Source: a virus
Virus record (IMG/VR): IMGVR_UViG_3300012582_000005
Span: 224,573-288,572 of that record
DNA length: 64,000 nucleotides
Strand: one strand, 5' to 3'
Shown here: positions 9,951 through 43,091 of the stretch, one piece after another
Layout of the letters: each line of letters starts with the position of its first letter
Position numbering within the stretch: the first letter of the stretch is position 1
Notes under the pieces: generated by a model
Told to the model about the DNA's origin: nothing
Seen by the model: the letters and a program-made list of their open reading frames with translations, nothing else
Databases searched by the model: none
Position numbers and translations under genes: made by a program

Positions 9951-11441
9951 ATGAAATATTTAAAATCATTTAGGCTATTTGAAGCAAGTAATTCGGGTGG
10001 TTGGTCTATAAAAGACTCATCTACAGCTAAAATTTTTAGTACGATATTTGGAAGTTTAGGATTTGGAATAAAATCCAGAAAATTGAAAAATATAGCTAAA
10101 GAATATGATGAATATTTACAAGTAGTATATGATGAATATTTAAAAGAAAGAAAAGCACCTGTAAATAAGAATAATTTAACAGATAAACCTGATACAATTA
10201 TTAATGTACCAAAGATTAAACCAGAATTTGATTACAATTATGTGCCTGAAATTGAACCAAAATCAAATTCTAATCCAGATAACGAAAGATTTAAAAAAGA
10301 ACAGCAGGAATTTGTGGATTTGGGATTAGATGTTCATGAATTAGAAGGTTTATTACATTATTCTAAAACACCAGAAGAAGTTGAAAAGCATTTAAATGAA
10401 TTAAAATCTTTATTAACACAAACACAGAAAGATATGGATGATATAATGAATAAAATATCAAATGGTGAAGATGATGAAAATCATACTTTAGCTAATTCAT
10501 ACGATAAAAAGAAATCAAAAGTAGATAAAATAAATACTATTCTTAAAAAAGTAAAAGTAAAACCTAATAATTCTTCATCAGGTTATGTTAATTATTTTGA
10601 GTCTATAGATTGGATGGCTGGTGCTATACAAGCACCTACTGATTGGAGTGAAGAAGATAAGAAAAATATTACTGCTAAGGTTAACCCATATAAAATAGAA
10701 GAATTTTCTTTAAGAAAAAGAAGTATAGTTGATTCGGAAGAGGATCAAAAGAAAGCTAAAAAATTAGAACATGCTTGGGCGTTATTAATAAATGATATAC
10801 ATAAAAAGTGGTTCTATGTTTTTGAAATAACAAAACTTGATGATAAATATAAATCTACTACAAAAAAAGAAAGTCCCGCAGCAGTAAAAAGTGCAAAAAC
10901 TTTAGAAGTATTAAAGACATCATTTAATGAAAATTCACAATTAATATACTCAGCGAGTCAAATAGGATTTAATAAGTCTTATTATGTTTTATCTAATTTC
11001 AATAACGATTTGATTTTATTGTATAAAATAGAAGGTTCTAATAAATTATTTAAAGTTATTGGTAATATGGGTATTTCGGAAAATAAATCTAAAATAGACT
11101 ACTTTGATTCTGATAAAAGTTCATTTGCTTGGAATGTGAATACAAATAAGTATAGAAATTTTGCTAAAGATACATTTATTATGTCGGATGATATTAATGG
11201 TTTTAAATATAAATTACGTATGAGTACTGCTTTAGGTAAAGACTATCCTTGTATAGAAATGGTAGATGAAGCAGGATATTTAAATATTGTATCTTATTAC
11301 AAAGAAGGGGATGAAATTAAGAAAAGTATTGTAACTATAAGACAAGTACCATTTTCATTATATAATGTGAAAGAAACACAACATATTGATGTAAAAGAAC
11401 CAATTTCTGAAATAAGTACTGAATTAAAAAAATCTATCTAA
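9951..11441 (+). CDS. Hypothetical protein with capsid-targeting-like N-terminus, 496 aa
   Basis: The first 11 residues, MKYLKSFRLFE, followed by AS, match the peptide shared by at least ten proteins in this window and end in L-F-E, the T4 prohead-protease type of site. A Gly/Ser-rich segment, charged helices (about 60-215) and a folded C-terminal domain follow (about 215-490). No catalytic motif is recognised. I infer a packaged or internal virion protein. The next two genes, 4 bases apart each, start with the same type of peptide, so this is a co-expressed group. Confidence 0.8.
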   Translation: MKYLKSFRLFEASNSGGWSIKDSSTAKIFSTIFGSLGFGIKSRKLKNIAKEYDEYLQVVYDEYLKERKAPVNKNNLTDKPDTIINVPKIKPEFDYNYVPEIEPKSNSNPDNERFKKEQQEFVDLGLDVHELEGLLHYSKTPEEVEKHLNELKSLLTQTQKDMDDIMNKISNGEDDENHTLANSYDKKKSKVDKINTILKKVKVKPNNSSSGYVNYFESIDWMAGAIQAPTDWSEEDKKNITAKVNPYKIEEFSLRKRSIVDSEEDQKKAKKLEHAWALLINDIHKKWFYVFEITKLDDKYKSTTKKESPAAVKSAKTLEVLKTSFNENSQLIYSASQIGFNKSYYVLSNFNNDLILLYKIEGSNKLFKVIGNMGISENKSKIDYFDSDKSSFAWNVNTNKYRNFAKDTFIMSDDINGFKYKLRMSTALGKDYPCIEMVDEAGYLNIVSYYKEGDEIKKSIVTIRQVPFSLYNVKETQHIDVKEPISEISTELKKSI

Positions 11442-11445
11442 TTAA

Positions 11446-11730
11446 ATGAAAGGTATCAAAAAATTTACACAGGTTTTTGAAGCAGAAGACCAAATCACAG
11501 TTCTTAATACTAAAATGGCTGAATATAATGCGAATAAATCAAGATTAACATCATTTTTAGGAAAAACTGATCAAGATCAACAATTTACTAATTTATTGGC
11601 TTCCCTGAAATATAAAGACAATGATTTATTAAGATTTGAATGGGCTTATCAAAAAGCTGCTGCTGATATGAAGAAATATAAAGAATTAATAGATAATACT
11701 ATAAAAGAATATAACACAAAGAAAATTTAA
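11446..11730 (+). CDS. Small helical protein with capsid-targeting-like N-terminus, 94 aa
   Basis: It begins MKGIKKFTQVFE followed by AED, fitting the shared N-terminal peptide with a V-F-E end. The rest is a charged helical protein without recognised motifs. It lies 4 bases after the 496-aa gene and 4 bases before the papain-like gene. Proposed as a packaged protein by analogy to T4 internal proteins. Confidence 0.78.
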   Translation: MKGIKKFTQVFEAEDQITVLNTKMAEYNANKSRLTSFLGKTDQDQQFTNLLASLKYKDNDLLRFEWAYQKAAADMKKYKELIDNTIKEYNTKKI

Positions 11731-11734
11731 TAAT

Positions 11735-12199
11735 ATGAAGTATATAAAACCTTTTATATTTGAAGCTAAAGGCGATATATTAGATTTAGCTAAATTGCAA
11801 ACTGATGTTGAAATTTTTAGAAAAAGACTTGAACATGATTGGGATTGGAATGATGATAAAACATGTCTTAAAGGACATTGTGGTATGGTATCAGAAGAAT
11901 TAGAAAAATTCCTTCAAAAATTAGGTTATAATGTAGTTAGAGTTAGGGGTTATTATTTAGATGCTGAAGATGAATTTGAACCAGATACCCACAATTGGGA
12001 ATTTAATGATATAGAAAATTATAATAAAAAATGGGAAAGAAATGGTGAAAGTGCGAAAGGTTTAAAATTTCCGCATTGGTGGATAGAAGTTGGTAGTTAT
12101 ATTGTTGATGTAACAGAAGATCAATTCCATCCATCAGAAGCAGATGTATATAGAATAGGAATTCATAAAAAACCTGTATCATATTATAAAAAAGGATAA
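11735..12199 (+). CDS. Papain/transglutaminase-like cysteine hydrolase, candidate packaged protein
   Basis: After the N-terminal peptide MKYIKPFIFE (I-F-E, then AKG) the 154-residue protein shows Cys49 in KGHCGMVSEELEKFL, His114 in FPHWWIEV and Asp125 in IVDVTEDQF. This Cys-His-Asp order with the H-x-W-x-E and D-x-T-x-x-Q-F patterns is seen in papain-like or transglutaminase-like folds. It could be a protease or amidase delivered with the DNA or used in particle maturation. The motif assignment is by eye; the substrate is unknown. Confidence 0.75.
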   Translation: MKYIKPFIFEAKGDILDLAKLQTDVEIFRKRLEHDWDWNDDKTCLKGHCGMVSEELEKFLQKLGYNVVRVRGYYLDAEDEFEPDTHNWEFNDIENYNKKWERNGESAKGLKFPHWWIEVGSYIVDVTEDQFHPSEADVYRIGIHKKPVSYYKKG

Positions 12200-12204
12200 T
12201 GTAA

Positions 12205-13686: not shown

Positions 13687-13742
13687 TCTTATTTTTTTTT
13701 TTAAAGAATGTCAACTTTTTTAGAAATAACTATATAATAGTA

Positions 13743-13982: not shown

Positions 13983-13984
13983 TT

Positions 13985-14401
13985 ATGTTTAAAGCGATTA
14001 AAAATTATCTATTTTATAGAAAGATAATAAATAAACTAAAACCAACACTATTAACTAATTTTGGAGTTAAAGTTGATATGCTTAGTAGGTTATATACGGT
14101 ATTTACTATACCAGAAAGAGAATATAAAGAACTCGTATCACAGTATCAAGAACATAGTGATAAATTAATTGAAATTGAATTCAAAGGATATAAGAAGAAA
14201 TTAGATACTTATCTAATGAAGCAAGGATTAACTGAAATGTATGGAATCTATTTGGAAGAGAGAGCTAACGAAAGACAGTTTATGTTAGCTATAACATATA
14301 AACATTTAGATGTTTTGTTTTGGGGTAATATTTCCAGATTAATTTTAATTTCTCTATTGGTTGGTATGGGTATTGGTGGTATAATATTATTATTCATATG
14401 A
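13985..14401 (+). CDS. Tail-anchored membrane protein, 138 aa
   Basis: A basic, helical soluble part of about 110 residues is followed by one C-terminal transmembrane segment (LILISLLVGMGIGGIILLF). No signal peptide. The topology suggests a membrane-anchored cytoplasmic protein. It overlaps the next gene by 4 bases (ATGA), indicating translational coupling. Confidence 0.78.
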   Translation: MFKAIKNYLFYRKIINKLKPTLLTNFGVKVDMLSRLYTVFTIPEREYKELVSQYQEHSDKLIEIEFKGYKKKLDTYLMKQGLTEMYGIYLEERANERQFMLAITYKHLDVLFWGNISRLILISLLVGMGIGGIILLFI

Positions 14402-14685
14402 AAATATTAAATATTTATACACTAGATTATGATATGATAATTTTTGAATCAATTATAACAGAAGATAAGTTAGATGATTTTATCAATTATTATATTGATA
14501 AAAAATTGAATAAAAGTAAACTGAAATTTGAAGTTATTGAAATTATAAAAAAGGAATGTTTTGTTACTATTCTTGTTAAATATAATTCTTATATAAGAGG
14601 TGGTATAGATTTTTCTACTAAACCTTTCAACATAGGTTTTGAATATCAAATAATAGAATTAGATAAGATTAATAATTTCCAATAA
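14398..14685 (+). CDS. Hypothetical protein, 95 aa
   Basis: Small, acidic, mixed alpha/beta protein with no recognised motif. Its ATG overlaps the stop of the tail-anchored membrane protein gene, so the two products may act together. Confidence 0.75.
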   Translation: MKILNIYTLDYDMIIFESIITEDKLDDFINYYIDKKLNKSKLKFEVIEIIKKECFVTILVKYNSYIRGGIDFSTKPFNIGFEYQIIELDKINNFQ

Positions 14686-14748
14686 AATAACAAACTTTCT
14701 TTAAATAAAATGTACAATCATTGTAAATAACAAATAAATCAAATATAT

Positions 14749-15201: not shown

Positions 15202-15222
15202 AAAATAAAATATTAATTAATT

Positions 15223-15876: not shown

Positions 15877-15901
15877 TAATTGTTTGCATGTTTTAATATA
15901 C

Positions 15902-15937: not shown

Positions 15938-15945
15938 GAATTTAC

Positions 15946-17470: not shown

Positions 17471-17543
17471 CGCAGGATGGAGAAGTTGGTATCTCGCAAG
17501 GCTCATAACCTTGAGGTCGTTGGTTCGAGTCCAACTCCTGCTT
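17471..17543 (+). tRNA. Initiator-type tRNA-fMet(CAT)
   Basis: Acceptor CGCAGGA / TCCTGCT has the C1:T72 mismatch found in Bacteroidetes initiator tRNAs. The anticodon arm is CAAGG-CTCATAA-CCTTG and the T-arm TTGG-TTCGAGT-CCAA. The initiator GGG/CCC stem signature is changed to AGG/CCT. It goes well with the phage IF-3 at 43557. Confidence 0.85.
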
Positions 17544-17550
17544 CTACAAT

Positions 17551-17650
17551 TGATGTAGTGAATGTTGGAAACAACAGTGGTATAATGAAGTAAAGCCTCT
17601 TGTATTCTTTTAGAATATAACGTAACGGAAGTACCATTTGAGCTACATCA
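17551..17650 (+). ncRNA. Candidate structured RNA inside the tRNA cluster
   Basis: An 8-bp perfect outer stem TGATGTAG (17551-17558) / CTACATCA (17643-17650) closes a 100-base element. Inside are TGTTG-GAAA-CAACA (GNRA loop, 17563-17576), TGGTA/TACCA (17578-17582 with 17632-17636) and TATTCT-TTT-AGAATA (17603-17617). It has no T-arm or anticodon arm and no ORF. It lies 7 bases after tRNA-fMet and 13 before tRNA-Glu, so it would be released by tRNA processing. T4 also carries small stable RNAs in its tRNA cluster. Confidence 0.5.
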
Positions 17651-17663
17651 CGATATTACAAAT

Positions 17664-17738
17664 GGCCCGTTCGTCTAGAGGCTTAGGACGACTACCTTTT
17701 CAGGTAGAAAACGTTAGGTTCGAATCCTGCACGGGCTA
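17664..17738 (+). tRNA. tRNA-Glu(TTC)-like with a six-base anticodon loop
   Basis: Acceptor GGCCCGT / ACGGGCT, D-arm GTCT...GGAC and T-loop TTCGAAT are present. The anticodon stem CTACC / GGTAG is perfect but closes a loop of only six bases, TTTTCA. TTC is the likely anticodon. The body is a paralogue of the tRNA at 17394. Confidence 0.72.
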
Positions 17739-17743
17739 CTATT

Positions 17744-18187
17744 ATGAAAAATATAGAACAAGAATTTGTGCCATATGTTGAATCTTTAGAATTAAAAAAT
17801 CTTGGATTTGATGAACAATGTTTTGGTGTTTATAGTATAACAGAAAATTTTCAATTTATTCAAGAATTTGAAAATCAACAATATATTAATAATAGTAATG
17901 AGATTATAGAAAAATGTAAATCTATTAGTTGTACAGCACCATTATTTCAACAAGCGTTTGAATATTTTAGAAAAAAATATAAATTGGAGGGGCTTATTTT
18001 ACCACAAGATAAATCTGCGTTATTACCTCTTCCTTCATATTTTATAGCAGTGATATCTTATAGAAACCAAGAATGGAAAGAATTATTCAATTCAACAAAT
18101 GAACATACGTTATTACATTATATAACCAATGAAGATGCTGAATTAGCTTGTTTAAAGAAATTAATTGAAATTGTTAAAACATTATAA
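17744..18187 (+). CDS. Conserved Bacteroidetes-type hypothetical protein, 147 aa
   Basis: The segments LKNLGFDEQCFGVYS and EDAELACLKKLIEIVK are typical of a widespread small protein of Bacteroidetes and their phages (often annotated only as hypothetical). It probably came from a host. The ATG is 5 bases after tRNA-Glu. Function unknown. Confidence 0.8.
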   Translation: MKNIEQEFVPYVESLELKNLGFDEQCFGVYSITENFQFIQEFENQQYINNSNEIIEKCKSISCTAPLFQQAFEYFRKKYKLEGLILPQDKSALLPLPSYFIAVISYRNQEWKELFNSTNEHTLLHYITNEDAELACLKKLIEIVKTL

Positions 18188-18254
18188 AAAATAATTCCTA
18201 AAAGAAAGAACAAAAGAAAGATATATACGTTATAATATTTAAATAACTAAGACA

Positions 18255-18350
18255 ATGACAACAATTATCAGAAATATGAATAATAATATTAATCGCACGA
18301 GAACAACTCTTGGGCTTTCTGATAAAGTATTGTCTTTTATGAAAAGATAA
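18255..18350 (+). CDS. Thr-codon leader peptide, 31 aa (attenuator A)
   Basis: The ORF starts MTTIIRN and contains NRTRTTLGLSDK, so five of its 31 codons are Thr (ACA, ACA, ACG, ACA, ACT at codons 2, 3, 15, 17, 18). Control-type codons lie just before CTTGGGCTTTCT, which can pair with the 5' arm of the following terminator. tRNA-Thr and the ThrRS gene come next. It has the design of a ribosome-dependent leader peptide. The ATG overlaps AAGACAA (18249-18255), complementary to TTGTCTT (18330-18336) near the ORF end; leader B has the same pair. Mechanism is inferred. Confidence 0.6.
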   Translation: MTTIIRNMNNNINRTRTTLGLSDKVLSFMKR

Positions 18351-18404
18351 TTAATTAAAAAACTTTATAATAGAAAGCCCGAAGCGATAAACTTCGGGTT
18401 TTTT
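18312..18404 (+). promoter_or_regulatory. Attenuator A: antiterminator/terminator pair before tRNA-Thr-thrS
   Basis: The terminator is CCCGAAG (18378-18384), loop CGATAAA, CTTCGGG (18392-18398) and a T6 tract. GGGCTTTCT (18312-18320), inside the leader ORF, is a perfect 9-base complement of AGAAAGCCC (18372-18380). The two pairings are mutually exclusive because they share CCC. A ribosome stalled on Thr codons 17-18 would partly cover 18312-18320, so the exact switching logic is not settled. Confidence 0.6.
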
Positions 18405-18413
18405 GTTTTATAT

Positions 18414-18484
18414 GCCTTTTTAGTTCAGTGGTAGAACACATCTTTGGTATGGATGTAACACGGATCCGATTTCCGTAGAAGGCT
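18414..18484 (+). tRNA. tRNA-Thr(GGT)
   Basis: Acceptor GCCTTTT / AGAAGGC, D-arm GTTC...GAAC, anticodon arm CATCT-TTGGTAT-GGATG with anticodon GGT, T-arm ACGGA-TCCGATT-TCCGT. It lies between the Thr-codon attenuator and the ThrRS gene, whose ATG is one base after the discriminator. Confidence 0.88.
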
Positions 18485-18485
18485 C

Positions 18486-19646
18486 ATGGAAGATCATAGA
18501 ATAATAGGTAGAAAGATGAATTTATTTCACTTTCAAGAAGAAAGTCAAGGCTCTGTGTTTTGGCATCATAACGGATATGTCTTGTATAGATTAATTGAGA
18601 ATTACATAAGAGAGAAAATATCGGAGCAAGATTATATTGAAGTAAAAAGTCCACAATTGGTTGATAAGAAATTATGGGAGAAGAGTGGACATTGGAGTAA
18701 GTTTAAAGAAAATATGTTTATCGTAAAGGATGAAGATAAAGAATTAGCAATTAAACCAATGAATTGTCCCTGTCATATAGAAATATTTAAACAAGGAATA
18801 GTTTCTTATAAAGAATTACCAATTAGAATGAGTGAATTTGGTTCTTGTCATAGAAATGAAAATTCAGGATCATTAAACGGATTATTCAGATTGCGTTCTT
18901 TTGTACAAGATGATGCTCATATATTCTGTATGAAAGAACAAATAGTTGAAGAAGCTGAGAAGTTTTGTAAATTATTAATTGATGTGTATAGTGAATTTGG
19001 ATTTAAAGAAGTTGAAGTAAAGCTTAGTGATAGACCAGAAAAAAGAATAGGTAGTGATGAATTGTGGGATTTAGCTGAGAGTAGTTTAAAAGAAGCTTCT
19101 AAGAATTTGAAGTGGGAATTGAATAAAGGTGAAGGTGCATTTTATGGTCCTAAATTAGAATTCATTCTCAAAGATAGTTTAGGTAGAGAATGGCAGTGTG
19201 GAACTTTGCAATTGGATTTCAATCTTCCTGTTAGGCTAGATGCATTCTATGTAAACCAAGAAGGTGAAAAAGAAAATCCTGTAATGATACATAGAGCAAT
19301 CTTAGGTTCTATGGAAAGATTTATAGGAATACTACTTGAGAATAGTGATGGTTGGTTACCATTTTGGTTAGCACCTGAACAAATTGTAATAGCAGGAATA
19401 AGTAATGAACAAGATGAATATTGTAAAGAAATATATGATATTCTTAAAAAGAAATATAGAGTTAAATTAGATATAAGATCAGAAAAAATAAATTCTAAAA
19501 TTGCTGAATTATATGAAAGAAAAGCTCAATATTTAATTGTAATAGGAAAAAGAGAAGTAAATGAAAATAAAGTATCAATTAAAAATTTGAAAGATAATTC
19601 ACAAATTAGTATTGATAAAAAAGATTTGATTGAATTTAAATTTTAA
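18486..19646 (+). CDS. thrS: Threonyl-tRNA synthetase, short form without editing domain
   Basis: The 386-residue class II synthetase has the ThrRS catalytic core: motif 1 with [17 protein letters not shown], zinc ligands Cys94 (MNCPCH), His145 (DDAHIF) and His269 (MIHRAILGS), motif 2 at CHRNENSG and motif 3 at [11 protein letters not shown]. The C-terminal anticodon-binding domain is present (from about 285). The N-terminal TGS and editing domains of the usual ~640-residue enzyme are missing, so mischarged Ser-tRNA-Thr would not be cleared in cis. It follows directly on tRNA-Thr and a Thr-codon attenuator, forming a self-contained threonine unit. Confidence 0.95.
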
Positions 19647-19652
19647 TTATAA

Positions 19653-19739
19653 GGGAGGGTTGCTTTAGAGACCGAAAAGTCCAGACTGTTAATCTGGTGA
19701 ATTAATATTCCATCGTGGGTTTGAATCCCACCCCTCCCT
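19653..19739 (+). tRNA. tRNA-Asn(GTT) with long variable arm
   Basis: Acceptor GGGAGGG / CCCTCCC, anticodon arm CCAGA-CTGTTAA-TCTGG (GTT) and T-arm GTGGG-TTTGAAT-CCCAC are perfect. The variable region is 17 bases with a GAAT-TAAT-ATTC hairpin, a class II feature not normal for tRNA-Asn. The D-arm is also atypical. The body recalls tRNA-Tyr, so its charging identity is open. Confidence 0.75.
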
Positions 19740-19745
19740 CAAAAT

Positions 19746-19832
19746 GCCTGTATCGCATAGATGGCCGATTGCACCTGATTTGTAACCAGGATGGTGATAA
19801 ACCACACGGGAGTTCGAATCTCTCTACAGGCT
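19746..19832 (+). tRNA. tRNA-Thr(TGT) with long variable arm
   Basis: Acceptor GCCTGTA / TACAGGC is perfect; the anticodon arm CCTGA-TTTGTAA-CCAGG gives TGT with one mismatch (A31:C39). T-arm GGGAG-TTCGAAT-CTCTC. The variable region is 17 bases with a TGGT/ACCA stem, which is unusual for tRNA-Thr. It decodes ACA, which the GGT tRNA at 18414 does not. Confidence 0.75.
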
Positions 19833-19876
19833 CAAACTTTTTCTAAATATTTCATATAAATGAAAATGTTTAGAAA

Positions 19877-20410
19877 ATGAAAAGTTGTAAAAAATGTAAT
19901 AATTACTATCCTAGTAGAATAAAAATAGATGGTAAAGTAAGAAATCTTAAAAATAGATCATATTGTTTAGATTGTTCACCATTTAATAAACATAATACTA
20001 AACAGCTTGATGTTTATATTAAAAATGATGTTTGTAAAGAATGTAATAATTCTTTAACGTTAGGTAGATGTCATGCTTGTTATAATAGAAAAAGAAGACA
20101 AAAAATGTCTAAAAAAGTTTATGATATTATAGGTTATAATTGTTGGATGTGTGGATATACAAAAGGTGAAATATCAAGTAAAATTTTAACATTTCATCAT
20201 ATAAATCCACAAGATAAAAAAATGAATTTAACTATTGATAATATGGCGAGATATGAGTGGTGTGTTGTATGGAATGAAATTAAAAAGTGTGTATCATTAT
20301 GTCCTACTTGCCATCAAGAATATCATTATACTAATTTAGTTACTGATGAAGATATTGAAAGGATTAAAAATGAAAATTGGAATAGAATACATGATGAAAT
20401 AAAATTGTAA
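19877..20410 (+). CDS. HNH endonuclease, likely homing type
   Basis: The 177-residue protein has an HNH/zinc core: Cys89 and Cys92 (CWMCG), the catalytic FHHINP (H107, H108), and the second zinc pair C142/C145 in LCPTCHQEYH. N-terminal CxxC knuckles (CKKC, CLDC, CKEC, CHAC) suggest extra zinc-finger DNA-binding units. It sits inside the tRNA array, a common place for freestanding homing endonucleases. Its stop codon lies within the acceptor stem of the next tRNA. Confidence 0.88.
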   Translation: MKSCKKCNNYYPSRIKIDGKVRNLKNRSYCLDCSPFNKHNTKQLDVYIKNDVCKECNNSLTLGRCHACYNRKRRQKMSKKVYDIIGYNCWMCGYTKGEISSKILTFHHINPQDKKMNLTIDNMARYEWCVVWNEIKKCVSLCPTCHQEYHYTNLVTDEDIERIKNENWNRIHDEIKL

Positions 20411-20548
20411 GGTGATGAAAAGGTAGACATATCTCCCTGTCTCGGAGATGGTGATAATGGGATAAACGCAGAATATTTGGATTGACCACAATTAATTATC
20501 TGTTCTGTAGCTAACTACACCGTGTTGGTTCGAATCCAACTCTTACAG
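20406..20548 (+). tRNA. tRNA-Asp(GTC)-like with a very long variable-region insertion
   Basis: Acceptor TGTAAGG (20406-20412) / TCTTACA (20541-20547), D-stem ATG/CAT, anticodon arm TCTCC-CTGTCTC-GGAGA (GTC) and T-arm GTTGG-TTCGAAT-CCAAC are all present. Between anticodon stem and T-arm lie about 75 bases in place of 4-5. They contain GGTG/CACC, CAGAA/TTCTG and TGTAG-CTAA-CTACA pairings. It could be an expanded variable arm, an intron-like insertion or a fusion of two tRNAs. The 5' end overlaps the HNH stop. Confidence 0.55.
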
Positions 20549-20594
20549 CATGGATTCTTAGATAAGATTGATGATATATTAAATGATTAAAAAT

Positions 20595-20667
20595 ACCTTC
20601 TTCGTCTAACGGATTAAGACTTCTGAATACGAATCAGAGAATAGGGGTTCGATTCCCTTAGAAGGTT
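20595..20667 (+). tRNA. tRNA-Arg(ACG)
   Basis: Acceptor ACCTTCT / AGAAGGT, D-arm GTCT...AGAC, anticodon arm TCTGA-ATACGAA-TCAGA (ACG) and T-arm AGGGG-TTCGATT-CCCTT. A regular cloverleaf reading CGN codons (after wobble modification). Confidence 0.85.
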
Positions 20668-20731
20668 CAAAAAGTAAAATAATAAAACAATATATAAGTT
20701 ATATCGTTTAAAGAATAAGACAAATAATATT

Positions 20732-20791
20732 ATGAAAACTATAGCAATGATTATTAGAATGAGAATTATTAGACCAAAAATGCTTGGGTGA
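20732..20791 (+). CDS. AGA-codon leader peptide, 19 aa (attenuator B)
   Basis: The ORF encodes MKTIAMIIRMRIIRPKMLG and stops at TGA. All three Arg codons (9, 11, 14) are AGA, the codon of the tRNA-Arg(TCT) encoded directly after the terminator; ArgRS follows further on. The final CTT GGG codons form the strand that competes with the terminator, as in leader A. After the stop the DNA still matches leader A (TGATAGAATATTGTCTTTT against TGATAAAGTATTGTCTTTT), so the two elements share ancestry. The flanking AAGACAA (20717-20723) / TTGTCTT (20799-20805) pair is conserved. AGA is also common in this genome, so leader function is inference. Confidence 0.5.
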   Translation: MKTIAMIIRMRIIRPKMLG

Positions 20792-20849
20792 TAGAATATT
20801 GTCTTTTAAAAAGAAATTCGAACCCAAGCAAATAAAGCTTGGGTTTTTT
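20782..20849 (+). promoter_or_regulatory. Attenuator B: antiterminator/terminator pair before tRNA-Arg
   Basis: The terminator is CCCAAGC (20823-20829), loop AAATAAA, GCTTGGG (20837-20843) and a T6 tract. An identical GCTTGGG (20782-20788) in the leader ORF can pair with the same CCCAAGC and so prevent the terminator. The layout matches attenuator A at 18312-18404. Confidence 0.55.
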
Positions 20850-20857
20850 GTTTATAT

Positions 20858-20930
20858 GCCCGATTGGTGTAATTGAATAGCACAATCTCCTTCTAAGTGA
20901 TTAGTCCAAGTTTGAATCTTGGATTGGGTA
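20858..20930 (+). tRNA. tRNA-Arg(TCT)
   Basis: Acceptor GCCCGAT / ATTGGGT (two wobble pairs), D-arm GTGT...GCAC, anticodon arm ATCTC-CTTCTAA-GTGAT (TCT, one mismatch). It reads AGA, the main Arg codon of this AT-rich genome, and follows attenuator B. Confidence 0.82.
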
Positions 20931-20938
20931 CATGAGTA

Positions 20939-21115
20939 ATGAAAAAAAATATAGTGGAAAGATTAAAAAGAATATTTACACATTTAGAGATAGTAATAGA
21001 AGAACATTATTTTAATGATGATGATTATGCTCCACCGATTAATGTTGATTGGTATTATGTAATTGAAGAATTAAAAAAGAATGGATTGGAAATAAGAAAT
21101 AGTAAAAATAAATAG
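20939..21115 (+). CDS. Small protein between tRNAs, 58 aa
   Basis: The ORF begins MKKNIVERLKRIF and has an acidic, aromatic C-terminal half (NDDDYAPPINVDWYYVIEEL). It starts 8 bases after tRNA-Arg(TCT), and its TAG stop lies inside the acceptor stem of tRNA-Ile. An alternative ATG at 20932 opens a short frame that stops early. No family recognised, but the composition looks coding. Confidence 0.6.
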   Translation: MKKNIVERLKRIFTHLEIVIEEHYFNDDDYAPPINVDWYYVIEELKKNGLEIRNSKNK

Positions 21116-21185
21116 TCTCGTAATTCAGTGGTAGAATGCTTCTCTGATAAGGAAGATGTCGTGTGTTCAATTCACACCGAGACTA
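21114..21185 (+). tRNA. tRNA-Ile(GAT)
   Basis: Acceptor AGTCTCG / CGAGACT, D-arm ATTC...GAAT, anticodon arm CTTCT-CTGATAA-GGAAG (GAT), T-arm GTGTG-TTCAATT-CACAC. The first two bases overlap the stop of the 58-aa ORF. Confidence 0.87.
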
Positions 21186-21190
21186 CTAAT

Positions 21191-21264
21191 AGCAATATAG
21201 TGTAATTGGCTAACACGCTGCTCTCATAAGGCAGAGATTATTGGTTCAAGTCCAATTATTGCTA
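21191..21264 (+). tRNA. tRNA-Met(CAT), elongator type (or Ile2)
   Basis: Acceptor AGCAATA / TATTGCT is fully paired, unlike the initiator at 17471. D-arm GTGT...ACAC, anticodon arm CTGCT-CTCATAA-GGCAG, T-arm ATTGG-TTCAAGT-CCAAT. A CAT anticodon modified to lysidine would make it tRNA-Ile2 for AUA; the sequence cannot decide. Confidence 0.82.
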
Positions 21265-21279
21265 CAGAAGAAATAGATT

Positions 21280-22487: not shown

Positions 22488-23150
22488 ATGAAAAATATTA
22501 AAAAATTTATAGATTTTATTAATGAAAGTCTTCGTATAGATAATACTGATAAAAATATATTTTTTTTAAAAGAAGTAGTTAAAAAATGCGGATTTGAACA
22601 AACATATCATTTTTTCTTAAAAGAGCCATTAAAAATTGGAACATGTCAATATGGAGATTTTTATCTTAATTATTATGATGTTAATGAATATGATGGTAAT
22701 TTAGCATTTTGGATTATATTTAATCAACATGAAGATAATCTATATGGTAAATCGTGGGATTCTTCTGTTATTTGGGTGGAAGATGGTATATTACAATATT
22801 CAGATAAAATTGAAGAATCAGATTTTAAACTTGATGATAATTTTATTGCTAAAATTGTACAAACAATAAAATCATATAATTATTTAGATAAATGGTGTGA
22901 ATTTATAAAAGAAATTGGTATTAAAGGTAGGAAATATCATAGAATGGCGATACATAATAAAGAATTTACATGGGAGCAACAAATTGATTGGATTAAAAAT
23001 AAAATAGAAATTAATAAATTATTAAATAGATACACAGAACCTTACGAACAAAGGACTTTAGATAAAATGATAGATTTAGGTGAAACTGCATATAAAGAGA
23101 AAGCAAAGAAAGATAATGATATTATGATGAAAATATTAAAGGGTATGTAA
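22488..23150 (+). CDS. Hypothetical protein with capsid-targeting-like N-terminus, 220 aa
   Basis: It begins MKNIKKFIDFINE followed by S, a close match to the shared peptide with I-N-E. The rest is a charged alpha/beta protein with many aromatic residues (NYYDVNEYDG, GKSWDSSVIWVEDG) and a helical C-terminus. No known family. Proposed to be packaged in the capsid. It follows argS by 26 bases. Confidence 0.8.
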   Translation: MKNIKKFIDFINESLRIDNTDKNIFFLKEVVKKCGFEQTYHFFLKEPLKIGTCQYGDFYLNYYDVNEYDGNLAFWIIFNQHEDNLYGKSWDSSVIWVEDGILQYSDKIEESDFKLDDNFIAKIVQTIKSYNYLDKWCEFIKEIGIKGRKYHRMAIHNKEFTWEQQIDWIKNKIEINKLLNRYTEPYEQRTLDKMIDLGETAYKEKAKKDNDIMMKILKGM

Positions 23151-23214: not shown

Positions 23215-23409
23215 ATGGATAAAAACACTTTAGGATTTGGAAGTAAGACATACGATTTTTTAAAACGCTATTATGAGTCAAATGGACAGAGTATTTGCAA
23301 TATTAAAATTAGTGGTTCTATAAGGATAAAATCTATTAGTAAAAATAATTTATCAGTTGGTTTAAAAAGAAAATTGATAATAGAAGAATTAACAGAAGAA
23401 ATAAATTAA
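23215..23409 (+). CDS. Small protein with a TLG-F-K motif, 64 aa
   Basis: The N-terminus MDKNTLGFGSKTYDFLKR closely resembles the C-terminal part of leader A (TTLGLSDKVLSFMKR) and the start of the M42 peptidase (STLGLRQESFDFLKQ). The remainder is basic and beta-rich, without a known family. It converges on the gene at 23406-23804 with a 4-base overlap. Confidence 0.65.
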   Translation: MDKNTLGFGSKTYDFLKRYYESNGQSICNIKISGSIRIKSISKNNLSVGLKRKLIIEELTEEIN

Positions 23410-23804
23410 ATTATTGTTTTTAACCAATGTATTTTAAATCCATAATATTGAAATTCGCCATCTTCTATACCACCTTCAATATCATTAGGTAAGTTATTAA
23501 ATATATTTTCCCAAGCTTTTTTAGCATATCTATTTTTATTAACTGACCATATTTTTTGACCATTTAAATCTCTAACTATGCAAAAGATAGCTAATTTATA
23601 TAAACCTTTACCTCTCAATTTTTCTATTATCTCTGAATCTTTAATAATATAACGGCTATTTTCTTTTTCTAATTTTATTTTACCTATATTAATATCATTT
23701 GACATTATATCATAATGAATATTAAAATCATCTATGATATGTCGTATTACATAAATATTATTCTTATGTAAATTAAAATTTTCATAATGTTTAATATATT
23801 TCAT
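23406..23804 (-). CDS. GNAT-like small protein, 132 aa
   Basis: EIIEKLRGKGLYKLAIFCIV resembles the acetyl-CoA-binding R-x-x-G-x-G/A segment and following helix of GNAT acetyltransferases, and VNKNRYAKKAWENIF resembles the next helix (N-x-x-A-x-x-x-Y/W). The start MKYIKHYENF is a partial version of the shared targeting peptide but has no [L/I]-x-E end. Catalytic activity is possible but not shown. Confidence 0.7.
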   Translation of the reverse strand: MKYIKHYENFNLHKNNIYVIRHIIDDFNIHYDIMSNDINIGKIKLEKENSRYIIKDSEIIEKLRGKGLYKLAIFCIVRDLNGQKIWSVNKNRYAKKAWENIFNNLPNDIEGGIEDGEFQYYGFKIHWLKTII

Positions 23805-23830: not shown

Positions 23831-24229
23831 TTACAGTGGTGGTAATCCTAAATTTGGATTATTTGATGCAATTATTTTTCCTTTGAAGTGTGATAAATGA
23901 TAAGATTTTGGTAAATGAACTTCGTTATCGTGATAATTTGGACCAACTTCAGATTTATTCACAACTTCTACATTAAATACATTATTATAAGAATCCATAT
24001 CACCATTTAAATTTGCTGTTGGATATGTTTTATCCGTAGTTATTTTAATTATAAGCGGATAATATATACCGTTAATAGAACTATTGGAAGATGCTGGTAA
24101 ATAAGCATAATCACCCGCTTTAACTTTTTCATTAAAATTAACTAAATAATTATATCCATCTGCATGTATTATTTTATTTGATTTTTTACTTTCATTTAGA
24201 AAATCATTAAACTTTTTAATAAAAGACAT
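23831..24229 (-). CDS. Hypothetical protein with capsid-targeting-like N-terminus, 132 aa
   Basis: It begins MSFIKKFNDFLNE followed by S, with an L-N-E end typical of the shared peptide. The body is beta-rich (GDYAYLPASSNSSINGIYYP). No family recognised. Leftward gene, 26 bases upstream of the GNAT-like gene. Confidence 0.77.
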   Translation of the reverse strand: MSFIKKFNDFLNESKKSNKIIHADGYNYLVNFNEKVKAGDYAYLPASSNSSINGIYYPLIIKITTDKTYPTANLNGDMDSYNNVFNVEVVNKSEVGPNYHDNEVHLPKSYHLSHFKGKIIASNNPNLGLPPL

Positions 24230-28916: not shown

Positions 28917-29339
28917 ATGGAAACAGTATTAATAGATTTAGATGATACAATTTGTGATTTCACAAGTAGTTTTAAATTACGTTTAAAAAAACATCCAGAA
29001 ATTGTTTATCCACAATCTCAATGGGGATTTTTCCTTGGTTTAGAACCATTACCAGATGCCATTGATGTGATTAATATGTTAAGAACAAAGTATAAAGTTT
29101 ATATTTTAACAAGACCTTCTTATAAAAATCCATTATGTTATACAGAAAAAAGAGTATGGGTAGAGAAACATTTTGATTTAGATTTCTGTAAGAATTTAAT
29201 CTTATGTTATGATAAATCTATGGTAAAAGGTAATTATCTTATAGATGATAATATACATGTTGGTTTTGAAGGAGAACATATACATTTTGGTAAAGAAAAA
29301 TTTACTAATTGGCAAGCGGTTAAAAATTATCTTTTGTAA
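28917..29339 (+). CDS. 5'(3')-deoxyribonucleotidase, HAD family
   Basis: HAD motif I is DLDDT (7-11), motif II is YILTRPS and the C-terminal motifs are KSMVKGNYLIDDN. This matches the NT5C/deoxyribonucleotidase group, which removes phosphate from dNMPs, at the usual short length (140 aa). In phages such enzymes help nucleotide scavenging. It is followed after one base by the 2H phosphoesterase gene. Confidence 0.85.
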   Translation: METVLIDLDDTICDFTSSFKLRLKKHPEIVYPQSQWGFFLGLEPLPDAIDVINMLRTKYKVYILTRPSYKNPLCYTEKRVWVEKHFDLDFCKNLILCYDKSMVKGNYLIDDNIHVGFEGEHIHFGKEKFTNWQAVKNYLL

Positions 29340-29340
29340 T

Positions 29341-29874
29341 ATGGGAGAGTTTAAAGGTTATTGTAAATGTGGTGATGGTATAGAGAAGGTATATAAATAT
29401 TCTTGTCTAATGGCTATTGTAGATAGCATAGTACCTACATTAAAATATGTACAAGATAATATTTTGCCAGAGGATATTTATAAGGAAGATGGGTATGGTG
29501 TAGTTATTAAACCACATGTAAGTGTTTTATATGGTTTCCATGATGATAAAGTAGATATAGATATATTAAAAGAATTGATAAGTAATTATAAAACTTTTGT
29601 AATAAATATTAATAAACTTTCTTGTTTTGAAAATGAAGAATTTGATGTATTAAAATTTGAAGTTAGTTCTGATTCATTAACAGGATTGAACAAAGATTGT
29701 AGAGATACATTTGAACATACATTACAATTTCCGTATAATCCACACATTACAATAGCTTATTTAAAAAAGGGAACAGCTAAAAAATATGAGTCTATAATCA
29801 GTTCTTTATCTATAGATGTTTTTAAAATGGTTTACTCAAGAGTGGATGGTTCTAATATTAAATTTAATTTATAA
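29341..29874 (+). CDS. 2H phosphoesterase (LigT/Acb1-like fold), 177 aa
   Basis: Two H-x-S/T motifs, KPHVSVLYGF (H59-S61) and YNPHITIAYL (H135-T137), about 75 residues apart, define the 2H phosphodiesterase fold. Relatives act on 2'-5' or cyclic phosphodiester bonds: RNA ligase/CPDase, and the anti-CBASS Acb1 enzymes of T4-like phages. The ATG at 29341 directly follows the upstream stop and is preferred over in-frame upstream starts within the nucleotidase gene. It overlaps the convergent WG-repeat gene by 6 bases. Confidence 0.8.
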   Translation: MGEFKGYCKCGDGIEKVYKYSCLMAIVDSIVPTLKYVQDNILPEDIYKEDGYGVVIKPHVSVLYGFHDDKVDIDILKELISNYKTFVININKLSCFENEEFDVLKFEVSSDSLTGLNKDCRDTFEHTLQFPYNPHITIAYLKKGTAKKYESIISSLSIDVFKMVYSRVDGSNIKFNL

Positions 29875-32412
29875 TAAATCATCAATTTTATATTGAATTG
29901 GTTCATCTCCTTCGTTTTGTTTAATTGTTATAAAATTATCATTAACTTGAATATCAAAACAATTTTTAAATAATAGATTACCTTCATTATCGTAAATATC
30001 TCTCAATGCAATTTTATCAGTTGTAAAACAAAATACAAATACAATTCTATTGTTTCTAACTGATAAAGGTTGTATATGTTGATAAGTGTTTATAGATTCT
30101 ATAAATTTATTATTTTTAAACATTAATAATTTCACATATTCTATATTGCTATACGTTATTCCTTTATAAAAAGATGCTTTATCATTTAAAAATAATGATA
30201 TATCATCATATTTATTTGTTATTTCTTTTGTTTCAGTATTAAATAATGAATATTTATTATTTTCACCAACTATAAATATCTTTTCGCTATCATTACCATT
30301 ACCTCTGATAGAATCAAATTTATAATCTAAAATAGTTTCACAACTTGGTAATTTAATTAATTTACATTTCTTACTAGTAGAATTTTTAAGTGAAAAAACA
30401 CCATTTGTTATTTTTAGTATTTGACTGTATTCACATGGTAATATGAATTCATTATCGATAGTCATTATACCGAATGTATCATCAGTTTTATAAACTTTGA
30501 AACATGGTTTATCATAAATTGATGCGAATGATTGAAAATATTGAATGTAATACCATTTATCAGGAATTATAATATCTAAGTTTTTATTACAAACGCCATA
30601 TTTATTTTCAGTATTATTAGAATTAGTAAATATAACAGCATCATTGTTTATTATATTTTGAATTTTAATATTAGCAATTTTACCAGTTAATACATTTATA
30701 GTCTGTTCATTATCCGTAGTACTTAGATATGCTTGTGCCATAGGATAATTTCTCATATCCAATGATGTATATTTACATGGTACAATTATTTTATAGTTAG
30801 TGAATACTCCCCATTTCTCGGAACTATTTTGAATAAGGAATGTATTATTTTTACTATCAGTTATGTTTATATACTCACACGGTAATAATTCTTTCATATC
30901 GTTACAAGAATAAATTCCATACATATCATCTTTTAAAACTATAACAATACCATTATTAATATCTCTATAATTTGCGAATTTATTATACTCACAAGGAATA
31001 AGAATTTTACCATCAGCGGATATTAATCCAATTTTTTCATTTTTTTGAATTGCGAAATCATCACCCCATTTATATTTAATTTCATCGGCTATAGAAGAAT
31101 CTATAATTACTTCACTCTTAAATGTATCTCTATCTAATAAACCAATTTTATCACCAATTTTAAATGAATAATTTTTTGAAATTTTATCATAAGTAGGTGG
31201 TAGTAATATAGTGTTATTCATATTGATTATACCATATTTACCATTATCTCTGAATATTAAATACTTAGTACCTGTTATGTATTCTAAGAATTCATACATT
31301 GGTTCTGTTTTAAGTAATATATTACCATTACCATTACCATTTAATTTAATAAATCCATATTTTCTATTTTTCTTTAAAAGAATAAGATAATCATAACTAT
31401 CGTTAGGAATATCAATACTATCATAATCACATTCTAAAATTATTTCACCTCTATTATTAATTAATCCATACTTACCGTCTTTTATACATATCATTATAGT
31501 ACCACCGTATATGGTTTCAATGATATTATCATATATTAATGGTATTATAATATCATTATATTTATTAACCATGCCACATTTACCATCTTTATATACAAAA
31601 AATATATCATTATAGGTATTTTTATACACATCATCATAATCATTAAACCATTGATAGAAAGTTCTATCAGTACTACTATCAGAATAAAGTTTATGATGAA
31701 GTCTAAAATTACCGACAATATTTGGTTGAATATTTCTTAGCCATTTTTCAACACTTTCTTTATATCCATTAACATTATCACCATATATTCTATCTTCTGT
31801 CCATAAAATAACTTTACCATCATCAGTACTAACGAATGGTTTTATTAGAAGTCTAGCTAAAGGATGTTCAATATTTTTATCTGACTTATTAATTAAATAT
31901 GTTACTAAAGAGCCTTCCATAACATCATTAGTGACGTAAGTTCTATTAGAACCTGTTCTAAACTCCATACATGATGTATTATGCCACTTTCTATCAGTGG
32001 TCATTGATGCAATATCATAAGCATGTCTAGATACAACTATAGTTAAATCTCCTTGTGCGCGTTTAGCTTTTTCTCTATCATTATCATATTTAGATTTTAA
32101 TTCTGGATTAAATCTTGCTAAAATCTTGCTAATTTTTGGTTGTTGATTTGGGTTTTTAGAATCTTTACAATTACCTTCAATATAATCAATATCCACATAT
32201 CCATGTTCCTTTAAAAATTTAAGTACTTGTATTTGAATAGGTGATACCATAGGTTGGAATGGGATAAGTATTCTATGCTTACCTTTAAATATTTCATCAT
32301 ATCTTTTATCACCACCAGCCTCTTTCCAATTTTTAACTAAGTTTCTAACTTCACTTAATTTCAATTTTTCTAAAAGCAAATTGTAATCTCTAAACGATTT
32401 TATTCTTTTCAC
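29869..32412 (-). CDS. WG-repeat protein with capsid-targeting-like N-terminus, 847 aa
   Basis: N-terminus MKRIKSFRDYNLLLE fits the shared peptide (L-L-E). Residues of about 60-250 form a domain with VVSRHAYDIASMTTDRKWHNTSC and RLLIKPFV, of a type seen in large-phage proteins without known function. From about 270 to 830 there are roughly twelve WG/KYG repeats (KYGLINNRGEIILECDYDSI and relatives), which form beta-propeller-like or solenoid surfaces. It is one of the largest candidate packaged proteins here. Confidence 0.82.
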   Translation of the reverse strand: MKRIKSFRDYNLLLEKLKLSEVRNLVKNWKEAGGDKRYDEIFKGKHRILIPFQPMVSPIQIQVLKFLKEHGYVDIDYIEGNCKDSKNPNQQPKISKILARFNPELKSKYDNDREKAKRAQGDLTIVVSRHAYDIASMTTDRKWHNTSCMEFRTGSNRTYVTNDVMEGSLVTYLINKSDKNIEHPLARLLIKPFVSTDDGKVILWTEDRIYGDNVNGYKESVEKWLRNIQPNIVGNFRLHHKLYSDSSTDRTFYQWFNDYDDVYKNTYNDIFFVYKDGKCGMVNKYNDIIIPLIYDNIIETIYGGTIMICIKDGKYGLINNRGEIILECDYDSIDIPNDSYDYLILLKKNRKYGFIKLNGNGNGNILLKTEPMYEFLEYITGTKYLIFRDNGKYGIINMNNTILLPPTYDKISKNYSFKIGDKIGLLDRDTFKSEVIIDSSIADEIKYKWGDDFAIQKNEKIGLISADGKILIPCEYNKFANYRDINNGIVIVLKDDMYGIYSCNDMKELLPCEYINITDSKNNTFLIQNSSEKWGVFTNYKIIVPCKYTSLDMRNYPMAQAYLSTTDNEQTINVLTGKIANIKIQNIINNDAVIFTNSNNTENKYGVCNKNLDIIIPDKWYYIQYFQSFASIYDKPCFKVYKTDDTFGIMTIDNEFILPCEYSQILKITNGVFSLKNSTSKKCKLIKLPSCETILDYKFDSIRGNGNDSEKIFIVGENNKYSLFNTETKEITNKYDDISLFLNDKASFYKGITYSNIEYVKLLMFKNNKFIESINTYQHIQPLSVRNNRIVFVFCFTTDKIALRDIYDNEGNLLFKNCFDIQVNDNFITIKQNEGDEPIQYKIDDLL

Positions 32413-32434: not shown

Positions 32435-32719
32435 CTACAGTCCATTTTCTATTTTACCTGATGCTATTTCTGATGGTAAATTTGGATTGTATGGACTTTG
32501 TATGAAATTACTATCTTCTTCTCCTATTGATGCTACAACAGCCTTTAAATCTAATATTATATCATCCAACTCTTTTTCGCCCATATTACACAATTCATCT
32601 TTAGAGTAAGTATGATATTTATTAGTATGTATACTTTTCTGAAGACTTAGTACATCTTCGATTTTAGACTCACTTTTATTTTCATTTAAAAAAGTGTTAT
32701 ATTTCTTTAAATATTTCAT
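32435..32719 (-). CDS. Small protein with capsid-targeting-like N-terminus, 94 aa
   Basis: Begins MKYLKKYNTFLNE followed by N (L-N-E end). The mature part is small and acidic, ending LPSEIASGKIENGL. No family recognised. Upstream of the WG-repeat gene by 22 bases. Confidence 0.74.
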   Translation of the reverse strand: MKYLKKYNTFLNENKSESKIEDVLSLQKSIHTNKYHTYSKDELCNMGEKELDDIILDLKAVVASIGEEDSNFIQSPYNPNLPSEIASGKIENGL

Positions 32720-32765: not shown

Positions 32766-33164
32766 TTAGTCAACATTTGGATACTTTTTAGAATGTAGAT
32801 AAGCATCTCTATATATTTGTTCTTTTTCTTTATTCTTTTTTTCAATATCGAGTTCTTTCATAATTTCAATTCTATCTTTGAACTCTCCTTTCGTCTCCAC
32901 ATAATTTTTATTTATTTCTATGATATTTACTTGTTTACTAGGAAATATCACAATATCATTTTGATATGGTTTAAATTGTGGTGAATAATTAGCCCAATGT
33001 TTACCATTTCTAAATCCACGATAATATACAACCCTGTCTTTATCTTCATTATGTTTTGTTATTATAATCTTAGTTCCATTCGCAGTTTTACGTAAAATAG
33101 ATTCAATATCATCGAATTGAATACTTTCGTTTAAGAATTCTTTAAAACTTTGTATATTTTTCAT
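32766..33164 (-). CDS. Hypothetical protein with capsid-targeting-like N-terminus, 132 aa
   Basis: Begins MKNIQSFKEFLNE followed by S, one of the clearest copies of the shared peptide. A beta-rich centre (NGTKIIITKHNEDKDRVVYY) and a lysine-rich helical C-terminus follow. No family recognised. First gene of a leftward group of three targeting-peptide genes, divergent from prkA. Confidence 0.76.
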   Translation of the reverse strand: MKNIQSFKEFLNESIQFDDIESILRKTANGTKIIITKHNEDKDRVVYYRGFRNGKHWANYSPQFKPYQNDIVIFPSKQVNIIEINKNYVETKGEFKDRIEIMKELDIEKKNKEKEQIYRDAYLHSKKYPNVD

Positions 33165-36322: not shown

Positions 36323-36326
36323 TTAT

Positions 36327-37893: not shown

Positions 37894-37894
37894 T

Positions 37895-38719: not shown

Positions 38720-38724
38720 TTAAA

Positions 38725-41694: not shown

Positions 41695-41699
41695 AAAAG

Positions 41700-41725
41700 A
41701 AAAGGAGCTAATTAGCTCCTTTTTT
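41700..41725. terminator. Bidirectional terminator after spoVR
   Basis: AAAAGGAGCTAA / TTAGCTCCTTTT is a near-perfect palindrome with T tracts on both strands, between convergent spoVR and the leftward gene ending at 41724. Confidence 0.87.
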
Positions 41726-43091
41726 ATTCTTCTTTATCTTCTTTATTTTCATCCTCTGTTTCTATTGGTTCAACGGGTTCTTGTTGTTCAATTTCAGCTT
41801 CGATTATTTCTTCTTCTTTTGCTTTTTGTTCTTCGTCTTCTTCATTAGGCTTATCTGTTTTTTTAATACCCTTTTTAACAACTTTCTTAGTATCTGTATA
41901 CTCTATTGGTAGTTCAACTGATAGTCGTAGTATCCTTCTTCTAAATGATTCAATCTGTTCATCGAAATATTTAAGAAGTTTTAAGAATATACTTCTTGGA
42001 TTTTCGGTATTTAAATTATATTTACTGAAAATTTCTTCTCTCTTATCAACTTTAGGAATTATGGGACGATTAGGAACATCAACTTTTCTCTTATTGATAG
42101 CTTTTTCTTCTTTCTCTTCTTGTGCATCAATAGCTCTATCAACATCTTGAAGAATTCCTTTTAAGTCATCATCGGTGAATTTCATTTTAACTCGTTTACC
42201 ATCTTCAATCATAACAACAGTATGTCCGTGTTTAATTAAATCATACAGAGTATCCAAATTAAAGATATATGCTTGTAAAGACTCCCAGTGAGTAGTCTTT
42301 TTAAGTTTGTCCATTAAATCTTTTTGATTAATAGAGCCTGTTTTTGGATCTTTCGAAGGTTTAATTGCTTTTTCTTTTAGCAGTTCATAGTAAGTCTGGG
42401 TAACTTTAGCACCAATTTCTTTTTCACTGAAATAGTAAATAGCTTTAGAAATATAGTTAGTTAAAAATTGTCTTGCTTCACTATCATTCTTCTCTGATTT
42501 AGTTACTCCTTTTTTATCGGCGGCTTGTTTATTCCAAATAGCAACTCTACCAAATTCTTTTTTGGCAACTTGTCTATTTTTTTCATAGTCAACTTTATCC
42601 TTCCACTTATAGTGTTGGTACACATGTGTTAATTCGTGTGGAACTCTTGAGTAAGCTAAATCTCTAACTTCGATTGGATTTTTAAAACTGTCTAATTTAA
42701 TTTCAAGTTTTAAACCTATAGTAGCTTGTATAATTCTACCATCATCATCAAAGTGTGTTCTTTCTTTTTTGTATGTAGCCTTGGCACTACCTCTTACTTC
42801 ATCAAAAACTATAGTTAATTTATGTAAAGGGAATTCTGCGGGTGGATTTTCAATGTCAATAACTATGGGTACGTTAATAACTTTTTCTTCTAATGCTTTT
42901 ATACAAGCATTGAATCTATCTTCTGGTTTTTTGAATCTTTTATTTGCATATTGATCCCTGATAGTGATTATTTCCTTCTTTACACGAAATAATTCTTTTT
43001 TAACTAATTCAACGAAAAAGTCCATACCAGGTACTACACCTCTATTTTCATTGATTGAATTATGTTCATCAAAAGACATTATATTTGACAT
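41724..43091 (-). CDS. HExxH metalloprotease with capsid-targeting-like N-terminus, 455 aa
   Basis: N-terminus MSNIMSFDEHNSINE followed by N is a diverged copy of the shared peptide (I-N-E). SRVPHELTHVYQH (HELTH at 152-156, H160) is a zinc-metalloprotease active site of the HExxH type. Helical segments follow, and the last 60 residues are extremely acidic (runs of E, P and K). A protease carried in the capsid, for maturation or for use after injection, is a reasonable inference. Substrate unknown. Confidence 0.8.
   Translation of the reverse strand: MSNIMSFDEHNSINENRGVVPGMDFFVELVKKELFRVKKEIITIRDQYANKRFKKPEDRFNACIKALEEKVINVPIVIDIENPPAEFPLHKLTIVFDEVRGSAKATYKKERTHFDDDGRIIQATIGLKLEIKLDSFKNPIEVRDLAYSRVPHELTHVYQHYKWKDKVDYEKNRQVAKKEFGRVAIWNKQAADKKGVTKSEKNDSEARQFLTNYISKAIYYFSEKEIGAKVTQTYYELLKEKAIKPSKDPKTGSINQKDLMDKLKKTTHWESLQAYIFNLDTLYDLIKHGHTVVMIEDGKRVKMKFTDDDLKGILQDVDRAIDAQEEKEEKAINKRKVDVPNRPIIPKVDKREEIFSKYNLNTENPRSIFLKLLKYFDEQIESFRRRILRLSVELPIEYTDTKKVVKKGIKKTDKPNEEDEEQKAKEEEIIEAEIEQQEPVEPIETEDENKEDKEE

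Follow-up and report, generated by a model that had tools for sequence, protein, structure and literature searches.

The closest precedent for a packaging label on phage proteins is the leader of the T4 internal proteins. The first ten residues of T4 IPIII are enough for packaging, and mutations have shown that targeting depends on residues 4 and 7 and processing on residues 8 and 10, the prohead protease gp21 cutting after L/I-x-E (PMC9026906). T4 Ip1-3, which have only the leader in common, block GmrSD nucleases (PMC12373910). N-terminal residues are also sufficient to package the anti-restriction protein DarB of phage P1 (PMC9024508), and phage SPN3US prefers Ser at P1' (PMC10052503).

We analyzed a window of 64,000 nucleotides of viral DNA, which is part of LR756504.1 (636,363 bp) in reverse orientation, with a 100% match over the 21 kb tested; a window position equals 153,861 minus the position in that record. 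In Al-Shayeb et al. 2020, LR756504.1 ranks among the four largest complete phage genomes and belongs to the Mahaphage clade, with Bacteroidetes as predicted host (PMC7162821). The phage is uncultured, and it is from sequence that we infer packaging, cleavage, and injection of the proteins described below. Approximately 760 to 800 genes were called on the whole record with a simple script, as were the genes of three relatives, LR745206, LR756502, and LR756501 (the last up to ∼609 kb), so that gene starts in the four genomes are approximate.

A common N-terminal peptide in the window and beyond

An earlier note on this DNA had named ten window genes whose otherwise unrelated proteins begin with a similar peptide. 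All ten genes and N-termini exist, and all ten carry the peptide, hereafter the tag. Tags were scored with a two-block model (residues 1 to 7, then P4 to P1' around a Glu), in which a score of ≥6, the threshold, corresponds to ∼3.5% false positives in LR756504.1. The tags in the window are as follows, with a slash after the terminal Glu.

9951-9983 (+): tag MKYLKSFRLFE/ASN of a 496-aa protein (9951-11441), score 18.8
11446-11481 (+): tag MKGIKKFTQVFE/AED of a 94-aa protein (11446-11730), score 12.7
11735-11764 (+): tag MKYIKPFIFE/AKG of a 154-aa cysteine-hydrolase-like protein (11735-12199), score 14.1
14398-14448 (+): weaker tag MKILNIYTLDYDMIIFE/SII of a 95-aa protein (14398-14685), score 6.7
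22488-22526 (+): tag MKNIKKFIDFINE/SLR of a 220-aa protein (22488-23150), score 17.8
24191-24229 (-): tag MSFIKKFNDFLNE/SKK of a 132-aa protein (23831-24229), score 13.9
27434-27481 (-): tag MNKLSKILSFNDFLNE/DNL of a 281-aa NlpC/CHAP-like protein (26636-27481), score 3.9
32368-32412 (-): tag MKRIKSFRDYNLLLE/KLK of an 847-aa WG-repeat protein (29869-32412, GTG start), score 7.7
32681-32719 (-): tag MKYLKKYNTFLNE/NKS of a 94-aa protein (32435-32719), score 18.9
33126-33164 (-): tag MKNIQSFKEFLNE/SIQ of a 132-aa protein (32766-33164), score 14.6
43047-43091 (-): tag MSNIMSFDEHNSINE/NRG of a 455-aa HELTH metalloprotease-like protein (41724-43091), score 9.1

The shared peptide is real, with nine of the ten named genes scoring 7.7 to 18.9; the 26636 tag (MNKLSKILSFNDFLNE) reaches only 3.9 because of its longer head. 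An orthologue of the 26636 protein on another viral contig (58% identical) keeps the tag (MFQKVLSFSEFIKE), as does an orthologue of the 11735 protein (another viral contig, body 50% identical), which starts MIYKFKEFLNE/SKK; in both cases the letters of the tag have changed. The homologue of the 32435-32719 protein at 310092-310727 of the LR756504.1 record starts MKHLKRFKTFINE/S. Trimmed by 20 residues, nine of the ten proteins fall into nine different BLAST families (26636 is not individually listed), in line with the claim of unrelated bodies. The HELTH motif lies in the 41724 protein as had been claimed, and the WG repeats of the 847-aa protein are recognized with E = 2.7e-18. While the set of ten stood in full, the earlier note had overlooked the weaker window member at 14398-14685 and the genome-wide extent: the profile search over the whole genome that it had proposed yielded dozens of further tagged proteins, of which its ten genes are a sample.

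A protein encoded at 23406-23804 (-) has a tag head, MKYIKHYENFNLHKN, with no clear [LIV]xE site. For two of the tagged window proteins, structure models built from single sequences were unusable (mean pLDDT 53 and 36), and the fold search returned nothing below E = 0.1. In a phmmer comparison with phiKZ, the 9951 protein weakly matched a protein annotated as thymidylate kinase, which is not a homology of interest.

Across LR756504.1, the pattern ^MK.[IL]K.[FY] occurs 38 times; shuffling of the N-termini gives 0.22 occurrences, and positions at internal Met give 0.00. With the two-block model, LR756504.1 has ∼57 tagged proteins (∼2 expected) from 50 unrelated families, two relatives have more than 100 each (118 and 148), and the third has ∼31; shuffles gave 2.0, 1.2, 1.0, and 0.6 for the genomes with 57, 118, 148, and 31. 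After trimming of 20 residues, the 354 tagged proteins of the four genomes form 291 BLAST families. In the model, position 4 is L/I in 93% and position 7 is Y/F in 89%; the tag is 9 to 18 residues long and usually ends in [LIVF]-x-E/[SAN], with F, I, L, Y, or V at P3, in place of the small S/A of phiKZ/SPN3US, and S, N, E, or A at P1'. The tagged set contains a few percent false positives, and variant heads such as MIKKYLEFMKE/S and MNFYSNFDDFLLE/K are missed. The NIF-phosphatase match MKHLLILDLDE is probably a false-positive tag; its DLDE looks catalytic.

Since the two-block model was trained on the same proteins, an independent set (n = 195) was chosen by the first seven residues alone. Within residues 7 to 14, [LIVFY]xE is present in 67% of these head-selected proteins versus 23% of the others, and at residues 25 to 32 its frequency is equal in both groups. 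The Glu at the tag end is thus not an artifact of selection. About one-third of the head-selected proteins have no clear site within residues 7 to 14, and heads without a clear [LIV]xE exist, e.g., MKYLKTYEGFWGN and MKHIKTFESFKTPK. AAA/AAG use is 0.76/0.24 inside the tag and 0.75/0.25 in the genome; with codon use so near that of the genome, it is the peptide that is conserved and not a copied DNA element. Comparing tag dialects by genome is a weak test among the close relatives, which have one common consensus; a clearly different dialect is seen only in more distant phages (LR756500, PAU).

The tag also behaves as a module among homologues. Comparison between genomes gave 1,012 reciprocal-best pairs, of which 39 have the tag on both partners (4.8 expected) and 61 on a single partner, so that packaging, if this is what the tag confers, would be dispensable or often gained and lost. 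Identity in tagged pairs is 45% in the head, 60% at P3 to P1 (where one of the three positions is nearly fixed by the model), and 21% in the 12 residues after the Glu. Five M42-like peptidase paralogues of LR756504.1 start directly at the domain, mostly with MDFKKTF; a sixth starts MKYYHKYENFFKE/SIENQENRG-FDFKKTF and differs from them by this N-terminal extension. Similarly, two genomes encode an RNA ligase that begins right at the domain, and two others encode one with an additional tag (MKLFKYIEFINE/N and MKKLHRYNSFIKE/S). LR756504.1 also holds ∼29 genes (BLAST cluster 104) of linked repeated families (IILSDELxxxLK, M42-like peptidase, ALRDE/LPKHH), a few of them tagged and most not.

Prohead protease, predicted cut sites, and upstream element

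A gp21-like prohead protease, which the earlier note had predicted to lie outside the window, is present there, fused to a scaffold. The protein has 712 residues (record positions 185342-187480) and an N-terminal S77/S80 protease domain, which scores 23.6 bits with Peptidase_S80 (cut-off 23.4) and 22.4 bits with Peptidase_S77, under the cut-off of 27. In an alignment of nine proteases, the His of GEFDHP (GExxHP) and the Ser of SSR align with T4 gp21. The scaffold part repeats [LIV]AE every 14 residues in 11 to 12 copies in all four genomes, compared with an average of 0.6 copies when the scaffold segment of the window's phage is shuffled. In most of the nine aligned proteins, T4 gp21 (ITE/S) included, a site [LIV][NTS]E/[SA] comes after the protease domain, and the motif [LIVFM][NA]E[SANH] is 35 to 49 times denser in the protease-scaffold than in the remaining proteome. 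Genes for a Gp20-like portal and a Gp23-like major capsid protein lie near that of the protease-scaffold. The capsid protein has IHE/N in the window's phage and INE/N, INE/N, and MNE/N in the relatives, in one alignment column and directly before a glycine- and proline-rich linker. Sites of one type, E followed by S, A, or N, are thus found within the protease-scaffold, at the border of its domains, and in the capsid protein, so that sequence like that of the tag end is present at places where cleavage by a prohead protease would be expected.

One short element is common upstream of tagged genes and is found in the window at the following position.

9938-9945 (+): AATATATA, late-promoter-like element upstream of the 9951 gene

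In composition, AATATATA is similar to the T4 late promoter, and we treat it as a candidate promoter. It occurs within 40 bases upstream of 157 of the 354 tagged genes (44%), 12 of 21 virion genes chosen by homology (57%), 362 of 2664 other genes, and only 3 of 59 homologues of replication, DNA-metabolism, and RNA-ligase genes (5%; tagged versus replication set, P = 5e-10). No tag was found on replisome homologues in the four genomes, and the sole tagged member of the replication-type set (n = 59) is the RNA ligase, in two relatives.

Explanations of the tag and possible cargo

Most likely, the tag directs its carriers into the virus head, in the way that T4 loads a handful of proteins. We regard it as highly probable that the peptide is a T4-type capsid-targeting propeptide used genome-wide, with docking, cleavage, packaging, and ejection as predicted steps. 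Dozens of late proteins would carry the tag, whose hydrophobic face (L/I at 4, F/Y at 7, and a later F/L/I) would dock them on the scaffold core while the prohead assembles. Next, the gp21-like protease, in one chain with the scaffold, would cleave scaffold repeats, capsid protein, and tags alike after [LIVF]-x-E; the scaffold would be shredded, and the cargo would be left free in the head with the DNA, to be ejected with the genome into the next host. The sequence-based support comes from the tag statistics, the repeated sites in the protease-scaffold, the capsid site, the conservation, gain, and loss of the tag among homologues, its absence from the replisome, and the upstream element. What counts against the propeptide reading are the heads without a clear [LIV]xE, the few tagged proteins that resemble enzymes of DNA or RNA metabolism (though not of the core replisome), the difference in tag in 61 of 100 tag-bearing pairs, a P1' unlike that of T4, and the unstated basis of the annotations in phage PAU (see below).

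It is unlikely, although the least so among the alternatives, that the tag docks and is cut while its carriers serve in assembly or fill the core and are degraded or lost from the head instead of being ejected as cargo. In T4, gp21 acts in this way on the core proteins gp22 and gp67, which are mostly removed (PMC9026906), and several tagged proteins are short and acidic with no known function, e.g., MKYLKLFEDFSEDWDEEEEEE. Many carriers, however, can be recognized as enzymes for which no part in assembly is obvious (RNA ligase, CCA-adding enzyme, 2H phosphoesterase, cyclase, exonuclease), and a cut motif of the scaffold type is seldom found in proteins other than the protease-scaffold.

The L/I4-F/Y7-F/L10 spacing would fit an amphipathic helix that localizes proteins to a membrane or to a replication or assembly site, with the final Glu as a helix cap and not a cut site, and the heads without a clear cut site would be expected under it. 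We nevertheless consider such a helix quite improbable: the terminal [LIVF]-[NAF]-E/[SAN] matches the repeated sites of the protease-scaffold and the capsid protein, the positions agree with the mutational data on T4 IPIII, and the promoter-like element is shared with virion genes. Least credible, to the point of being nearly discounted, is a common start that arose from translation-initiation preference, copied gene starts, or paralogy. LR756504.1 is AT-rich with little Shine-Dalgarno signal, and Lys is common at residue 2 of all its proteins, as such a preference would have it. However, the tagged proteins belong to 291 separate families, codon use in the tag follows that of the genome at large, the peptide is nearly absent at internal Met and in shuffles, its Glu is position specific, and it recurs in relatives; these family, codon, shuffle, and position tests refute all three origins for the bulk of cases.

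If the tag is indeed a capsid-targeting propeptide, its carriers suggest what the head may contain. Recognizable tagged domains in the relatives include RNA ligase and CCA-adding enzyme; others are guanylate cyclase, exonuclease, NUDIX, methyltransferase, peptidases, and cell-wall enzymes. An Acb1-like 2H phosphoesterase is tagged in three genomes, with some of these tags under the score threshold. Two tagged proteins (LR756502 and LR756504.1) score 28.4 and 29.6 bits with the profile of Acb1, an anti-CBASS phosphodiesterase that degrades CBASS cyclic nucleotides (cut-off 27), with the general 2H family PF13563 scoring above Acb1 in both. Since T4 Ip1-3 block GmrSD, counter-defense and RNA repair would be a plausible theme of the tagged cargo.

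Several further observations concern these functions. Other Acb1-like copies in LR756504.1 and two relatives have tag-like starts, and an untagged 2H phosphoesterase (29245-29874, +; PF13563 E = 4e-10, Acb1 under the cut-off) adjoins the tagged WG-repeat gene. The tRNA nucleotidyltransferase of LR756504.1 is apparently split between two genes far apart (record positions 107707-108867 and 583108-583926), with a tag only on the second part; in two relatives it is one tagged gene. Nine predicted tRNAs cluster at 17471-21265 of the window, two with 88-base predictions and one with an unreadable anticodon. Tag-like orthologues at LR745206.1 182970, LR756502.1 207650, and LR756501.1 455943 resemble isochorismatase/nicotinamidase-fold hydrolases (VVDVQKxF); Pfam searches with two of them returned no match at E ≤ 0.001.

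The functions of most huge-phage genes are not known. Should the tag be a packaging label, the sequence by itself would assign dozens to more than 100 genes per genome to those carried in the virion, give the exact mature N-terminus of each carrier, and indicate the first-acting proteins; the purpose of very large genomes and heads would become testable, and labels would be available for loading chosen proteins into phage heads. The chances seem to us about even that the largest phages known inject a tegument-like arsenal of 60 to 150 different proteins per genome, recruited by one modular N-terminal label and including RNA ligase, CCA-adding enzyme, and Acb1-like phosphoesterase; tRNA repair and counter-defense would then act from the first minute of infection.

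Comparison with known systems

The principle is already known from the T4 internal proteins; the scale, and tRNA-repair enzymes and an Acb1-like phosphoesterase as cargo, appear to be new. The open-access literature yielded no description of such a tag in huge or Bacteroidetes phages. In RaK2, for which virion mass spectrometry data exist, no such shared tag was seen among the proteins inspected in the first 50 kb, and phiKZ, scanned for the tag, showed no excess. The inner-body or ejection proteins of phiKZ/SPN3US are comparable as numerous head proteins packaged with DNA and cut after x-x-E; they differ in cleavage at S/A-x-E or A-x-E and in mostly long propeptides (two are of 20 and 24 residues). 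The P1 Dar proteins differ in that BLAST found no common leader.

Starts of the MKNFFSFINE/A type are found in Chryseobacterium phage MA9V-2, in two cases close to the head genes, and starts of the MKYIKEYEEFLLE/A type in LR756500 (44 heads versus 4.5 expected). In Sphingomonas phage PAU, ∼10 genes by the capsid, portal, and protease genes start with MK[ST][LI]xxLYE or a close variant, often continuing to KLNE/A, and two tag-bearing genes are annotated "internal capsid protein," the basis of the annotation not being stated in the record. Published work places the host of PAU in Bacteroidetes, as predicted for that of the Mahaphage. PAU thus shares with the Mahaphage set a Gp23-like capsid and a common tag on genes adjoining capsid, portal, and protease; it differs in having separate protease and scaffold genes, another tag dialect, and fewer tagged genes, many of which are clustered by the head genes.

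The likeness to the T4 internal proteins that the earlier note had drawn is borne out by the spacing of the targeting sequence (residues 4 and 7 and the terminal Glu), and the same scan recovers T4 IPII and IPIII (MKTYQEFIAE). T4 gp61.1 (54 aa; NC_000866, 18966-19130) starts MKTFKEFIKE/D, an internal-protein-like leader, and is possibly an overlooked packaged protein. As in T4 IPI, IPII, IPIII, and Alt, unrelated proteins share only an N-terminal propeptide with hydrophobic or aromatic residues at 4 and 7 and a terminal [hydrophobic]-x-E, together with a gp21-type protease and a Gp23-type capsid. T4 cut sites have mainly A at P1', whereas the Mahaphage tags have S, N, E, or A. The Mahaphage tag further differs in its MK[YH][LI]K start, a protease fused to a repeat scaffold, and a wider P3 (L, I, V, F, Y). 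While there are three such internal proteins in T4, and at least 10 known across its relatives, the Mahaphage set has ∼31 to 148 tagged proteins per genome, RNA-repair enzymes among them.
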